From contig JH599919.1 of NCBI GenBank assembly GCA_000245075.1, positions 1 through 45,231 of the forward strand: a DNA stretch of 45,231 bases, in the 5' to 3' direction. The notes under the pieces were generated by a model. That model had not been told where the DNA came from and ran no database searches. It saw nothing but the letters and a program-made list of their open reading frames with translations. Shown piece by piece: positions 5,067-44,166 of the stretch. A program made the position numbers and the translations under genes. Position 1 is the stretch's first letter. Each line of letters begins with the position of its first letter. The DNA comes from Acetobacteraceae bacterium AT-5844. GTDB taxonomy: Bacteria; Pseudomonadota; Alphaproteobacteria; Acetobacterales; Acetobacteraceae.

Positions 5067-5184
5067 ACCTGTTGCCTCCTGTATTTTGGTCAGGCGGCAG
5101 CCTGCGACGGCTTCCCGCATGCGGCAAGAGGTGTCACACGCCCGTAGCTGACGGCGCGTGAGCCCGGCTGCTATCTTTGCCGCG

Positions 5185-5931
5185 ATGACAGACACGAACC
5201 CGCCTCGCCGTATCGCCCCGCAGAGCGGCCCCCAGTCCTGGACTGCCGACGCCCTTTCCCCCGCGGACTGGATGGTGCCGGTGGGGGCCGAGGCGGCTGC
5301 CGAAATCCTGGCGTCGCCCGGTGCCGGGCGGCCCGTGCTGGACCCGTTGCTGTCCCGCGTGGTGGAGCGGCTGACGCATGGCCAGGGATTCGCGCTGCTG
5401 CGAGGCCTGCCGGCGCAGCAGGATACGCAGGCCGTGCTGGCCGCCCTTGGCGACCGGCTGGGGCATAGGGTGAGAATGCAGTTAGGCGAAGGAGATATTC
5501 TTACCGTCCCGGCTGATATTCTACTGCTGCTGTGCCGTGAATCGGCCAGCATGACGCTGTACTCCGCCGCCGCTGTGCACAATGCGCTGCTGAAGGCCGA
5601 CCGCGCGGCGTTGGAGGTGCTGTACCGCCCGCTGCCCTACGGGGAGGACCGCGATATCCCGGTCTTTGCTGTCAGCGGCGGGGTTTTTTCGGCGTGGCTG
5701 GATCGCGCGGCCCTGGCCCGTGCGGTGCCGCCGGCGGCGCTGGCGGCGCTGGAGGCGGCCATGGCGGCGCCCGGCCTTGCCCTCTCTCTTCCGCTGCGGC
5801 CAGGCGATGTGCTGTGCGTGAACCCGTTTCTCGTCTGGGCTTCACGGGTGCCGGGGCTGGAGATGCTGGCGCTCCGGGTGCCGGGAGATTCACGCCTCTC
5901 CGAAGGCGCCTTCGCCATGCTGGGGGAATGA
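5185..5931 (+). CDS. TauD/TfdA-fold protein lacking the iron-binding triad
   Basis: The 248-residue protein aligns along its length with TauD/TfdA-type Fe(II)/2-oxoglutarate dioxygenases: the GFALLRGLP strand, a PADILLLLC segment matching the usual HTDGxDxxGLLC region, and LRPGDVLCVN matching the GD(M/V)xxxNN region. The metal ligands are gone. The HTD motif reads LTV (residues 106-108) and the distal His of the VLHSR motif reads WASR (Ala219). About 40 residues before the HTD position are also missing compared with the family. It is probably a non-enzymatic ligand-binding or regulatory relative. A GTG at 5158 is an alternative start; neither start has a clear Shine-Dalgarno. Its stop overlaps the ATG of the next gene (ATGA), so the two are translationally coupled. 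Confidence 0.7.
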   Translation: MTDTNPPRRIAPQSGPQSWTADALSPADWMVPVGAEAAAEILASPGAGRPVLDPLLSRVVERLTHGQGFALLRGLPAQQDTQAVLAALGDRLGHRVRMQLGEGDILTVPADILLLLCRESASMTLYSAAAVHNALLKADRAALEVLYRPLPYGEDRDIPVFAVSGGVFSAWLDRAALARAVPPAALAALEAAMAAPGLALSLPLRPGDVLCVNPFLVWASRVPGLEMLALRVPGDSRLSEGAFAMLGE

Positions 5932-6665
5932 TGCGCATCCTGGTTGCCAACGCCAACACCACAGAGGCCATCACGCAGCTCTGCGCCGGGGCCGCCCGTG
6001 CCGCCGCCGCGCCGGGCACCGAGATCCTCGCCGCCACGCCGCGCTTCGGCCCGGCGGTGATTTCCTCGCGGGCGGAGAATGTCATCGCCGGGCATGCCTT
6101 GCTGGAGCTGCTGGCGGAGCATGCGGGCCAGGTGCAGGCGGTGGTGCTGGCCGTCAGCCATGACACGGCGCTGGAGGCCGCCCGGCAACTCATGCCTTGC
6201 CCGGTGGTGGGCATGACGGAAGCGGCCTGCCTAACGGCCTGCATGGTGGCGGCACGCTTTGGCCTTCTGACCCTGGGCGGGGTGGAGACCTATCGTGAGC
6301 TGATCGGCCGTCATGGCCTCTCCTCTCGCCTTTCCGGGCTGGAAGGCATTGCCATGACGCCGCCGGAGGCGGTGCAGGACCCCGCACGGGCCGAGGCGAT
6401 GGTGCTGGAGGGAATTGCACGGCTGGTGGAAGGCGGGGCGGATGCCGTGGTGCTGGGCGGCGCGGCACTGGCCGGCATGGCCGCGAGGCTGGAGGCGCGT
6501 GCGCCCGTGCCATTGCTGGACGGCATCGCCTGCGCCGTGAAGCTGTCCGAGGCGCTGGTGGGCCTGAACTTGCCGAAGCCGCGAGCGGGCAGCCTGGCGC
6601 CGCTCTCTGGCCGTGAGAGCGGCGGGCTGTCGCCGGCGCTGGCGGCGCTGTTACGCGGCGGCTGA
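5928..6665 (+). CDS. Asp/Glu/hydantoin racemase-like protein without catalytic cysteines
   Basis: The 245-residue protein shows the two-lobed Asp/Glu/hydantoin racemase fold: an N-terminal RILVANANTTEAI strand-loop, VVGMTEAA in the middle and the GADAVVLGG strand in the second half. The two cysteines that deprotonate the alpha carbon in active members are replaced. The ACFGDPG-type motif reads AVSHDTA (Val76) and the LGCAG motif reads LGGAA (Gly178). The paralogue at 43525-44166 in this same window keeps both. A conventional two-base racemase reaction is therefore unlikely; a lyase/decarboxylase-like or purely binding role is possible. The ATG at 5928 overlaps the upstream stop by 4 bp; a second ATG follows immediately. 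The end overlaps the convergent lpxB by 15 bp. Confidence 0.8.
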   Translation: MMRILVANANTTEAITQLCAGAARAAAAPGTEILAATPRFGPAVISSRAENVIAGHALLELLAEHAGQVQAVVLAVSHDTALEAARQLMPCPVVGMTEAACLTACMVAARFGLLTLGGVETYRELIGRHGLSSRLSGLEGIAMTPPEAVQDPARAEAMVLEGIARLVEGGADAVVLGGAALAGMAARLEARAPVPLLDGIACAVKLSEALVGLNLPKPRAGSLAPLSGRESGGLSPALAALLRGG

Positions 6666-7814
6666 GGGGCCGTCGCTTTCCAGCGCGCGCAGTACCGCTG
6701 TCGCGGCGGCGTGGCTGGGAATGCCACCTTCCGGGCGTAGCATATCGAACACCGTGGCGAAGCCTTCGCGCTGCGCCGCCGCGGCGGCGGGGTCCGTCAA
6801 CAGGCGGACCAGTTCCGCGCTCAGCTTCTCCGGCGTGCAATCCTGCTGCAGCAATTCAGGAATGATGCTGCGTTTCGCGAGCAGGTTGACGATGCTGACA
6901 TGCTCGACCTTGATCAGCCGCCGGACGATGGCGGCTGTCAGCGGATTGACCCGATAGCCCACCACCATCGGCACCCCGGCCAGTGCCACCTCCAGCGACG
7001 ACGTGCCGGATTTGATCAGCCCGACCTCGGCGGCGGCGAAGGCGTCGTATTTCTCGCTGATGTCGCGGACGAGGATGGGCGGCGGGTGCCAATCGGCGGC
7101 GGCGGCTCGCACCGTTTCCTCCACCGGTCCGGCGAGCGGCACTACTGGTCGTAGCTTCGGCACGCGGGCGGCAGCCAGTTTCAGCGCGGCCCCGAAGGTG
7201 GGCAGTAGGCGGCCAACCTCGCTGCGGCGGCTGCCGGGCATGACCAGCACGACACGTTCATCCGGCGCGATGCCATGCAGGGCACGGAAGCGCACGGCAT
7301 CGCCCTTGTCGGCACCCGATTCCAGGATGGAGTGGCCGACGAAATCCACGGGGATACCGGCCTTCTCGAAGAAGGGCGCCTCGAAGGGCAGCAGGGCGAG
7401 GATACGGTCCACTTCCTTCGCGATGCGCTTCACCCGGCCCGGGCGCCAGGCCCAGACCTGCGGCGCGACATAGTGAAGGATCCTGAAGCCCTTCGGCCGC
7501 ACCCGCGCGGCCACGCGCAGGCCGAAGCCCGGACTGTCGATGGTGACAACCACGGCCGGGCGGCGCGCCATGATATCGGCGACCGTCTCGTCCAGGCGGC
7601 GGGAGAGGCGGCGGATGTTCGGCAGCACTTCCGCGAGCCCCATCACCGCCAGCTCCCGCATCGGGAACAGGCTGGAAAAGCCTTGTTCGGCCATGCGGTC
7701 TCCGCCAACACCGGCGAAGGTGAGGTCTGGCCGTGCGGCGCGCAGGGCCGCGATCAGCCGCGCGCCCAGCAGGTCTCCGGAGGCTTCGCCCGCGACCAGA
7801 TAGACCAGCGTCAT
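6651..7814 (-). CDS. lpxB: Lipid-A-disaccharide synthase
   Basis: The 387-residue protein has the full usual LpxB length. The N-terminal GEASGD motif (residues 9-14), the VGGDRM segment, the YVAPQVWAWRPGR segment and the SGTSSLEVAL donor-binding region are all diagnostic. It is a GT-B glycosyltransferase (family GT19) that joins UDP-2,3-diacylglucosamine to lipid X to form the beta-1,6 disaccharide core of lipid A, at the inner face of the cytoplasmic membrane. Its start overlaps the nitrilase-fold gene by 4 bp (ATGA), so it is the last gene of a three-gene unit. This is unusual, since lpxB commonly sits in an lpxD-fabZ-lpxA-lpxI-lpxB cluster, which is not in view here. Confidence 0.95.
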   Translation of the reverse strand: MTLVYLVAGEASGDLLGARLIAALRAARPDLTFAGVGGDRMAEQGFSSLFPMRELAVMGLAEVLPNIRRLSRRLDETVADIMARRPAVVVTIDSPGFGLRVAARVRPKGFRILHYVAPQVWAWRPGRVKRIAKEVDRILALLPFEAPFFEKAGIPVDFVGHSILESGADKGDAVRFRALHGIAPDERVVLVMPGSRRSEVGRLLPTFGAALKLAAARVPKLRPVVPLAGPVEETVRAAAADWHPPPILVRDISEKYDAFAAAEVGLIKSGTSSLEVALAGVPMVVGYRVNPLTAAIVRRLIKVEHVSIVNLLAKRSIIPELLQQDCTPEKLSAELVRLLTDPAAAAAQREGFATVFDMLRPEGGIPSHAAATAVLRALESDGPSAAA

Positions 7815-8701
7815 GCGGGTTCCTTCACAGGCGGCGCATCGAAGGGGCGGCTCGGCCAGTCCCGATAGTTGAAGACGGCGCCCTCACGCCGCACCGTCTC
7901 GATGCGCGCAGGGTCGAGATCGGCGAATACCCATTGCGGCATGTCCAGCGCCCCACGCGCCAGGACGCCATCTTCCGGGAAGCCGCGGTCGATGGGGCCG
8001 AAGACGGCCGCGTAGCCACGATTTTCATCCAGCGCGGCGGACCAGGGCGCGATGCCGACCGTGGGGGTGATGGCGACGAAGCACTGGTTCTCCACCGCCC
8101 GAGCGGCGGCGCAGACGCGGACACGGTTGAAGCCGTGCATGCTGTCCGTGCAGGAGGGTGCGAGGATCAGCCAGGCGCCTGCCTCCACCTGCGCCCGCAC
8201 ATGCTTCGGGAACTCCGAATCATAGCAGACGGAAATGCCGATCAGCCCCCAGGGCGTGCGGAACACGCCGGGTGTGGCGCCGGCGGAGACGCCCCAGCGC
8301 TCCCGCTCGAACCGCGTCATGGCGTGCTTGTCCTGCGTGGCGACGCGGCCTTGCGGGTCGATCAACGGCGCACGGTTGCGGATCAGCCCATCCTCGTCCC
8401 GCACCGGCAACGTGCCGGGCAGCAGCCACAGCCCGGCGCGGCGGGCGGCGGCCCGCATCTCGGCCAGGATCTCCGGGGCCGCTTCCACCATGGCGGCCAA
8501 CTCGCCCGCCTCATCAGCGATGTTGGAGCCGGTGAGGCCGGCGCCCAGTTCCACACAGGCATATTCCGGCAGCACGGCAAGGTCGGCGCCTCCGGTCTTC
8601 GCCTCCGCCAGCCAGCGGTCCAGCTTGGCACCAAAGGCGGCGATGCTCTCCGGCCGCTCCACCGGGTATTGCAGCAGGGCAAGGCGCAGGGGGGCGGTCA
8701 T
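7811..8701 (-). CDS. Carbon-nitrogen hydrolase (nitrilase-fold amidase)
   Basis: The 296-residue protein has the nitrilase superfamily Glu-Lys-Cys triad in the expected order and spacing: E46 (LPEY), K125 (QDKHAM) and C159 (SVCYDSEFP). It should cleave or transfer an amide C-N bond through a Cys thioester in the cytoplasm; the substrate is not evident. It overlaps the upstream GNAT gene by 4 bp and lpxB downstream by 4 bp. GNAT and nitrilase domains occur fused in one protein in other bacteria, so the pair probably acts together. The ATG at 8701 lies inside the end of the GNAT frame, consistent with coupled translation. Confidence 0.9.
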   Translation of the reverse strand: MTAPLRLALLQYPVERPESIAAFGAKLDRWLAEAKTGGADLAVLPEYACVELGAGLTGSNIADEAGELAAMVEAAPEILAEMRAAARRAGLWLLPGTLPVRDEDGLIRNRAPLIDPQGRVATQDKHAMTRFERERWGVSAGATPGVFRTPWGLIGISVCYDSEFPKHVRAQVEAGAWLILAPSCTDSMHGFNRVRVCAAARAVENQCFVAITPTVGIAPWSAALDENRGYAAVFGPIDRGFPEDGVLARGALDMPQWVFADLDPARIETVRREGAVFNYRDWPSRPFDAPPVKEPA

Positions 8702-9288
8702 GGCAGGGTGCGTTCCCAGAAATCAAGGATATGGGGCGTTTCGTTCTCGGCGCCGATCTCGCGCCAGTCCAGTGTGCAGGTCAGGCCGGGGCAGGGGGCG
8801 TAACCCCGGTTGCGCCAGAAGGCGTCCAGTGGTGTGTAGCCGGCTGGCCTGCGCGGGTCCTGATCCGAGCGGCGGACGCCGCAGAAAGCAGTCCGGGGCA
8901 GGGCCAGGGCGCGCGCATGGGCCTCGCGCAGTTCGAAGAACCGCACGCCCGCACCCTGGCCGCGATAGGCGGGCAGCAGAACGCTTTCCCCGAAATAACA
9001 GTATTCCGCTGGGTTCCGCCCCGCCGCCGTGAATGCGTCGCGGACAGCCGCATGGGTTTCCGCCATCGGTTCGCAGGTCGCGGCCCCCACTGCGGTCTCG
9101 CCATCGAAGGCGATGATGGCCGCCGCGCCTTTGCCATCCGCATAGGTGCGGAGGTAGCGGGCCTCGTAAGCCTCATCGCCATCATAGAGATAGGGCCAGG
9201 CGCGGAAGACCGAGATGCGAAGCTTCGCCAGCGCTGGCAACAGAGGGTGCAGCGCGTCGCCGCGCAGGGTTTCGAAGCGGAGAGACAT
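8698..9288 (-). CDS. GNAT family N-acetyltransferase
   Basis: The 196-residue protein has the GNAT core, with the acetyl-CoA loop at about residues 106-112 (LLPAYRGQGAGVRF, the Q/RxxGxG/A motif) and an N-terminal region (LRISVFRAWPYLYDGD) typical of the GNAT domain partnered with carbon-nitrogen hydrolases. It should acetylate an amine, but the acceptor is unknown. It heads the GNAT-nitrilase-lpxB unit with 4-bp overlaps. No purine-rich ribosome binding site precedes the ATG at 9288, so the mRNA may be leaderless or start very close to it. Confidence 0.85.
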   Translation of the reverse strand: MSLRFETLRGDALHPLLPALAKLRISVFRAWPYLYDGDEAYEARYLRTYADGKGAAAIIAFDGETAVGAATCEPMAETHAAVRDAFTAAGRNPAEYCYFGESVLLPAYRGQGAGVRFFELREAHARALALPRTAFCGVRRSDQDPRRPAGYTPLDAFWRNRGYAPCPGLTCTLDWREIGAENETPHILDFWERTLP

Positions 9289-9416
9289 GGGCGGGAGGGA
9301 TACAGCGGATCGGGCGCCGGGGCGAGATCAGCGCGCGTGCAGAGGCGCCGCCGGAACAGTGCGGGTCGTGCAGGGCAGGTTCGGGGTCTTGCGATATCGG
9401 CCGCTACACAAAATGG

Positions 9417-43524: not shown

Positions 43525-44166
43525 ATGGCCCGCCGAATCCTCGTGATCAACCCGAATTGCTCGGAAAGCTGCACCGCCGGCATCGCGCAATCCCTCGCAC
43601 CCTTCGCCGCCGAGGGCCGCCCGCCCTTCGAGGTGGTCTCCCTTCCCGGTGGCCCGCCCGCCATCGCCACCTGGCGCGACTGGTTCAGCGTGGCCGAGCC
43701 GCTCTGCCGCATGGTGGAGGAGGAAGATGCGCTGGCCTACATCATCGCCTGCGTCTCCGACCCCGCGATTGACGTGTTGCGGACGGTGACGCCCAGGCCG
43801 GTGATCGGGCCCTTCCGCTCGGCTGTCGGCTCCGCGCTGGCGCGGGCGGAGCGGTTTGGCGTGATCGCCTTTGTCGAGGCGTCCAAGGCGCGGCAGCGGA
43901 AGGTCTTGCAATCGATGGGCGTGGAGGCGCGGCTTGCCGCCAGCATCGCCCTGAACCTGCCGATGGAAACGCTGACCGACCCCACCGCTGCCCGCGAGGC
44001 GCTGTGCAACACCGCCAAGGCACTGGTGGCCGCTGGCAGCGAGGCTGTCATTCTGGGCTGCGCCGGCATGGCCGGCCACCGCAAGGCGGTGGAGGACGCC
44101 GCTGGTGTGCCGGTGATCGAGCCCTGCCAGGCCGCTGCCGCGCAGGCGTTGCTGGCGCTGGCTTAA
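43525..44166 (+). CDS. Asp/Glu/hydantoin racemase with both catalytic cysteines
   Basis: The 213-residue protein has the racemase fold with RILVINPNCSESCTAGI at the start, Cys76 in IACVSDPA and Cys179 in LGCAGM, the two-base pair used by hydantoin and aspartate/glutamate racemases. An amino-acid or hydantoin racemase active in the cytoplasm is expected; the exact substrate is open. GGAG lies about 10 bases before the ATG at 43525. It converges on the M20D amidohydrolase, with a strong hairpin between. It serves as an internal reference for the degenerate relative at 5928-6665. Confidence 0.88.
   Translation: MARRILVINPNCSESCTAGIAQSLAPFAAEGRPPFEVVSLPGGPPAIATWRDWFSVAEPLCRMVEEEDALAYIIACVSDPAIDVLRTVTPRPVIGPFRSAVGSALARAERFGVIAFVEASKARQRKVLQSMGVEARLAASIALNLPMETLTDPTAAREALCNTAKALVAAGSEAVILGCAGMAGHRKAVEDAAGVPVIEPCQAAAAQALLALA

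Follow-up and report, generated by a model that had tools for sequence, protein, structure and literature searches.

We found that the gene for an M20-family metallo-hydrolase is kept beside a divergent pair of genes whose products have lost the catalytic residues of their families: pTauD, a pseudo-oxygenase of the TauD/TfdA fold, and pRac, a protein of the Asp/Glu/hydantoin racemase fold. The hydrolase looks like the core of this locus, and pTauD and pRac look like its accessories. The locus was analysed in a window of 45,231 nucleotides, which is one contig (C10) of an Acetobacteraceae genome of 5.19 Mb. By the pRac tree, Pseudoroseomonas aerophila is the nearest named relative of the window (pRac identity 89%). 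The features are listed in Table 1.

At this locus two pseudoenzymes of unrelated folds share a bacterial operon and accompany one hydrolase whose residues are intact. Pseudoenzymes are usually studied singly and mostly in eukaryotes. Among the matches listed in a search of the open-access literature, no paper on the pTauD-pRac pair or on the module was found.

Table 1. Positions of the module genes and their junctions in the window
Feature	Positions	Strand	Basis or remark
M20-family metallo-hydrolase (NCBIfam NF005678 / PRK07473, CPG2-like), 388 aa	3900..5066	-	Profile score, CPG2 alignment, invariant ligands
Divergent intergenic region	5067..5184		Six-locus alignment; promoter scan
pTauD, TauD/TfdA-fold pseudo-oxygenase, 248 aa	5185..5931	+	Fe ligands and 2OG arginine lost
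Junction ATGATG	5928..5933	+	pTauD stop TGA (5929-5931) overlaps candidate pRac starts 5928 and 5931; sequence and 51 named pairs
pRac, Asp/Glu/hydantoin racemase-fold protein, 244 aa	5931..6665, or from ATG 5928	+	V75 and G177 in place of the catalytic cysteines

Gene order and co-occurrence

Genome contigs were scanned with a pRac profile, and the best 80 of the 115 confirmed named loci were taken. M20, pTauD and pRac were found together in 47 of these 80 loci, and M20 and pRac without pTauD in 25. Four had pTauD and pRac without M20 (a contig end truncates L110, L164 and L167 but not L112), and in another four pRac had neither partner (a contig end truncates L158 and L161 but not L100 and L125). 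The same 80 loci provided 51 named pTauD-pRac pairs, of which 16 overlap, 27 are separated by 3-8 nt, one by 35 nt and seven by 67-202 nt, which puts 43 of the 51 in overlap or at most 8 nt apart. Within the window's genus, pTauD was present in 15 of 16 relatives (missing from G007) and a close pRac also in 15 of 16 (missing from G005). The outer neighbours, an MFS gene and lpxB (minus strand, 3' of pRac and overlapping its final 15 nt), were seen beside the trio only among the window's close relatives and, therefore, the trio is kept in differing surroundings. Chance adjacency of the trio is ruled out by the conserved order and the co-occurrence. The original prediction had expected the two pseudoenzyme genes to be conserved as neighbours in related genomes, and these counts bear it out.

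Co-occurrence was assessed in 299 genomes of the family. Orthologues of pTauD, taken at 186 bits or more with two pieces in G005 counted once, numbered 51 copies in 50 genomes. Those of pRac, at 346 bits or more, were found in 71 genomes, with 14 weaker matches among those listed left out, and those of M20, at 58% identity or more, numbered at least 134 copies in at least 130 genomes, after matches at about 49% or below had been dropped. Among the M20 matches listed, all three genes occurred in 41 genomes, pTauD and M20 without pRac in nine, pRac and M20 without pTauD in 27, and M20 alone in 53. An M20 orthologue was present in 50/50 pTauD genomes and a pRac orthologue in 41/50; no pTauD without an M20 orthologue was found in the 299 genomes. 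pRac was accompanied by M20 in 68 of 71 genomes, and in the three others (G159, G232 and G307) pRac lies less than 500 nt from the contig start, again among the matches listed. Copies no more than 3.5 kb apart were counted for pTauD-M20 (45/51), pTauD-pRac (39/51) and, among the M20 matches listed, pRac-M20 (61/71). In seven of the nine pTauD genomes without a pRac orthologue, pTauD adjoins M20. Fisher tests, which ignore phylogeny, gave p < 1e-20 for each gene pair, and the genome-wide association that the original prediction suggested searching for is thus present on this measure. Since pTauD is never found without M20 and M20 is often alone, the core role seems to fall to the hydrolase and an accessory role to the pair. 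The earlier view of pTauD and pRac as a unit beside M20 was right in that the two are kept together, but the tightest partner of pTauD is M20 rather than pRac and, therefore, a better description of the locus is an M20 module to which two accessories belong. One genome carries two pTauD copies (G160:C1:18502 and G160:C1:5431054), each beside M20, and lacks a pRac match above the cut-off applied.

Pairwise distances across 45 loci correlated at 0.865 for pTauD-M20, 0.814 for pTauD-pRac and 0.718 for pRac-M20; the corresponding partial correlations, calculated without a control for genome background, were 0.69, 0.55 and 0.05. These values would fit pTauD as a link between pRac and M20. Little weight is placed on this because the genome background was not controlled for and because distances are best resolved for the fastest gene, which is pTauD.

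Start sites, junction and intergenic region

The TauD-like open reading frame opens at GTG 5158, with ATG 5185 as an alternative start. ATG 5185 is the likelier of the two since pTauD relatives align from an ATG at that position (MTD, MTE or MSD), with support that is partly circular because the start chosen in each relative was the one nearest to the query's start. The pTauD/pRac junction reads AATGATGCGC (AATGATG). A pRac start at 5928 would give ATGA and a 4-nt overlap, and a start at 5931 would give TGATG and a 1-nt overlap. The overlap was 1 nt in 15 of the 16 overlapping pairs and 4 nt in one (best 80 of the 115 named loci, with pRac starts also set by the nearest-to-query rule), suggesting that 5931 is the likelier start. 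The ATGA coupling originally described therefore holds in that the frames overlap and the close spacing is conserved, but the 1-nt TGATG form is likelier. Overlaps of 1, 4 or 8 nt were seen in 126 of 577 same-strand neighbours among crude gene calls and, thus, ATGA by itself proves little; it is the conserved close junction across pairs, not the overlap as such, that exceeds chance.

In most loci the divergent genes share a short intergenic region. This layout, together with the largely kept pocket framework of pRac, would suit a sensor-regulator, a pair that binds an amino-acid-like ligand and regulates how the divergent M20 gene is expressed. However, the Pfam matches of pTauD and pRac include no DNA-binding domain, and no clear conserved operator was seen when six intergenic sequences were inspected by eye. 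We consider such a regulator very unlikely. A promoter scan of the intergenic region gave nothing above threshold. A candidate element, CTGACG-18 nt-TATCTT at 5148-5177, is partly conserved in the alignment of six loci inspected by eye and scores below the threshold of the scan. Its end lies 7 nt before ATG 5185, and it would yield a leaderless pTauD mRNA.

Catalytic residues and selective constraint

The M20 protein scored 600.2 bits against NCBIfam NF005678 (cut-off 386), which makes it a member of that equivalog, and gave a near full-length match to carboxypeptidase G2 (1cg2) with the metal ligands aligned. Seven active-site positions (H95, D97, D125, E159, E160, E184 and H363) were invariant in 46/46 rows. 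The hydrolase is apparently a working enzyme with a complete active site, in agreement with the earlier description of it as intact. It differs from PRK07473 and carboxypeptidase G2 in being paired divergently with two enzyme homologues that lack catalytic residues. At one locus, L074 (G014), the M20 match is split into two pieces that lie in separate frames (8174-9338), through either a frameshift or an assembly error.

pTauD scored 33.7 bits against PF02668, above the curated cut-off of 27; of six other members, two fall short of it (one at 19.6 bits, one with no match). The models predicted for the two accessory proteins gave both folds with high confidence (pLDDT 95.2 for one and 94.7 for the other), and the model of pTauD has the double-stranded beta-helix. 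The iron triad HxD...H is gone from the window's pTauD, with L106 in place of the first His, V108 in place of the Asp and A219 in place of the distal His, and a gap stands at the column of the 2OG-binding arginine (LLRLWL motif). These losses rule out an ordinary functional dioxygenase in the window. FrbJ (5eqn) and TtnM (7n7v) are Fe(II)/2OG hydroxylases of the same superfamily; unlike them, pTauD has no Fe ligand or 2OG arginine, is shorter, and is tied to an M20 gene rather than to a polyketide cluster or a phosphonate cluster such as that of FrbJ.

A survey of 60 distinct pTauD sequences and 16 ordinary paralogues, taken from genomes within the family, showed that the losses are graded across genera, with the distal His gone throughout. 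The branch between the two groups has support of 100/100. All 16 paralogues keep HxD...H and the RLWL arginine, whereas the distal His was found in 0/60 pTauD sequences, its place being taken mainly by Lys (26) or Ala (23), and Arg at the 2OG column in 31/60. The first His was retained in 41/60 and D or E at the acid position in 56/60. Four of the 60, including the window's, have lost all four features. Pro214 and Trp218, beside the lost distal His, were invariant in 60/60. Since intermediate stages survive in sister genera, the path from enzyme to accessory is traceable and testable. Relatives with HxD or HxE and the arginine but without the distal His might possibly retain some iron chemistry. 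Some distal-His substitutions in E. coli TauD retain activity, and a search of the open-access literature found no paper on these. The former HxD region of the window's pTauD (5480-5539) is AT-rich, with a GC content of 0.517 compared to 0.65-0.77 in the flanking 60-nt steps. The pTauD of L065 (G005, 6307-7224) contains an insertion of about 45 residues rich in Gly, Pro and Glu within one open frame, on a stretch without a pRac orthologue.

pRac matched the PF01177 profile and has the racemase fold, with Val75 and Gly177 at the positions of the two catalytic cysteines. The closest racemases are HpxA of Klebsiella pneumoniae (3qvj/3qvk), an allantoin racemase whose catalytic cysteines are given as Cys79 and Cys184 in PMC12661438, and AllR of P. 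fluorescens (5lfd). pRac differs from these in its Val/Gly site and in adjoining an M20 hydrolase. The V/G combination was found in 90/90 rows with at least 55% identity to pRac; in this set identical sequences were merged, the window is counted twice and any locus may recur with different starts. More distant rows, including two solved structures, were C/G (13), A/G (10), C/C (7), V/G (6), G/C (2), I/G (1) and M/G (1). Judged by its residues, an ordinary racemase is ruled out for pRac, both cysteines being absent. Much of the conserved pocket framework is nevertheless retained: N7, N9, T15, G40, P91, D78, E97 and G129 are common to 7/7 Cys/Cys rows, and D197 and G198 to 6/7. S76, T79, T96 and Y121 were each present in at least 97% of the 90 pRac rows and in 0, 1, 0 and 0, respectively, of the seven Cys/Cys rows. 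G182 marks pRac and also its C/G, A/G and V/G relatives. The original prediction of two degenerate proteins is upheld at the residue level by the missing iron triad and the V/G site; its description of both as dead enzymes fits the loss of catalytic residues, but pRac, with its pocket framework, may still be catalytically active.

Between the window and L064, dN/dS was 0.105 for pRac, 0.137 for LpxB, 0.185 for M20 and 0.352 for pTauD, and in the four window pairs where the two could be compared, pRac was constrained about as much as LpxB. Purifying selection is clear on pRac and weaker on pTauD. Neutral decay of both genes is ruled out for pRac by its LpxB-like dN/dS and is unlikely for pTauD. 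Another possible explanation is slow decay: pTauD would be a remnant retained as the operon head, providing a translation start and coupling for pRac, so that only pRac and M20 matter. Its iron-site ligands have been lost stepwise, and it evolves fast (mean distance 0.52 compared to 0.29 and 0.25 for the other two genes), and no gene of the operon has a higher dN/dS; the value for the distant pair L064-L081 is as high as 0.96, with a dS that is probably too low. A pRac tree was built from 74 rows, leaving out L168 (a run of N) and ten loci in which pRac lies close to the beginning of the stretch; on it, pTauD presence needs eight changes, at least five of them forced by well-supported branches, compared to a mean of 22 in shuffles. 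At L067 (G007, 6643-6690) only a 15-codon ORF stands at the aligned pTauD start. Its end continues to overlap pRac as TGATG, and it looks as though nothing but the coupling had survived. However, four very close pairs gave pTauD dN/dS values of 0.07-0.13, and the window compared with its five closest relatives gave 0.33-0.46. Its predicted fold is intact, Pro214 and Trp218 are never lost, and nine genomes keep pTauD without a pRac orthologue, seven of them beside M20. A mere remnant is, on this evidence, improbable.

The main rival to an accessory role is that pRac is a cysteine-independent enzyme (for example, an isomerase, decarboxylase or lyase) acting before or after M20, with pTauD stabilizing it. 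The fixed V/G site and an SxDTA loop would be the mark of such an enzyme. The LpxB-like constraint fits it, as do the pocket-region positions that are kept or newly fixed and the Cys/Gly, Ala/Gly and Val/Gly groups among distant relatives, one of which overlaps an M81-type gene (L238). Also, a decarboxylase and maleate isomerases are members of the superfamily. To our knowledge, however, every solved relative with a mechanism available to us uses at least one of the two cysteines, and the arylmalonate decarboxylase / maleate isomerase branch likewise keeps at least one, in contrast to pRac, which has no cysteine at either position. We regard this rival as somewhat unlikely.

Proposed roles and further neighbours

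The reading that we tentatively prefer is that the pTauD-pRac operon serves the M20 amidohydrolase as an accessory module. The hydrolase would cut an N-acyl- or peptide-like amino-acid compound, a class suggested by its CPG2-like family. pRac, which keeps the allantoin/hydantoin-racemase fold with Val and Gly replacing the two acid-base cysteines, would bind this ligand, or the substrate or product of the hydrolase, without racemizing it. pTauD, having kept its fold, would be an adaptor or scaffold made with pRac, linking pRac to the hydrolase or modulating the hydrolase. We infer that pTauD and pRac may form a physical complex, that pRac may hold a ligand and that the activity of the hydrolase may be modulated. 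Counting against the accessory reading, the accessories are separable, with M20 and pRac lacking pTauD in 25 of the best 80 of 115 loci and a pRac orthologue missing from nine of the 50 pTauD genomes. Other counterpoints are the fast evolution of pTauD, the pRac of L100 and L125, which has neither partner in the stretch covered, and loci outside the family, where at the thresholds used neither partner was found near pRac relatives (0/18). A bolder proposal, which we hold to be possible if doubtful, is that pTauD (as adaptor) and pRac (holding the ligand) form a dedicated hetero-complex that controls or extends M20, or that pRac founds a cysteine-independent chemistry with a pseudo-oxygenase partner. 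The remaining probability lies with explanations that we have not thought of. Annotation of these genes as 'taurine dioxygenase' and 'hydantoin racemase' would assign activities that their residues do not support.

Outside the family, no M20 or pTauD relative was found near pRac relatives in 18 loci at the thresholds used. These were L093 and 17 of 20 further loci; the remaining three belong to family genomes and are distant paralogues. At L238 the M81-type gene overlaps the pRac relative by 4 nt, and at L235 and L237 genes near the pRac relative resemble an amidohydrolase and a polysaccharide-deacetylase-type protein, judged by eye from their first residues.

M81/MlrC metallopeptidase genes were found at the module in 18 of 81 loci (the 80 named loci and the window, crude gene calls), which is suggestive and not constant and, thus, does not make M81/MlrC a third constant partner; it is possibly a further partner of the module. 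It lies 3' of pRac in L110, L119, L120 and L147, beside M20 in L113, and near M20 with one gene call between in L104, L136 and L137. The window's genome has seven M81 matches, with none on the window contig. Genes for DctP, Bug-type (labelled by eye) and ABC solute-binding proteins also recur near the module; nothing is drawn from these because the families are very large in these genomes. The window contains a second match to the Asp/Glu racemase family on the plus strand (43534-44163), which is 31% identical to pRac.
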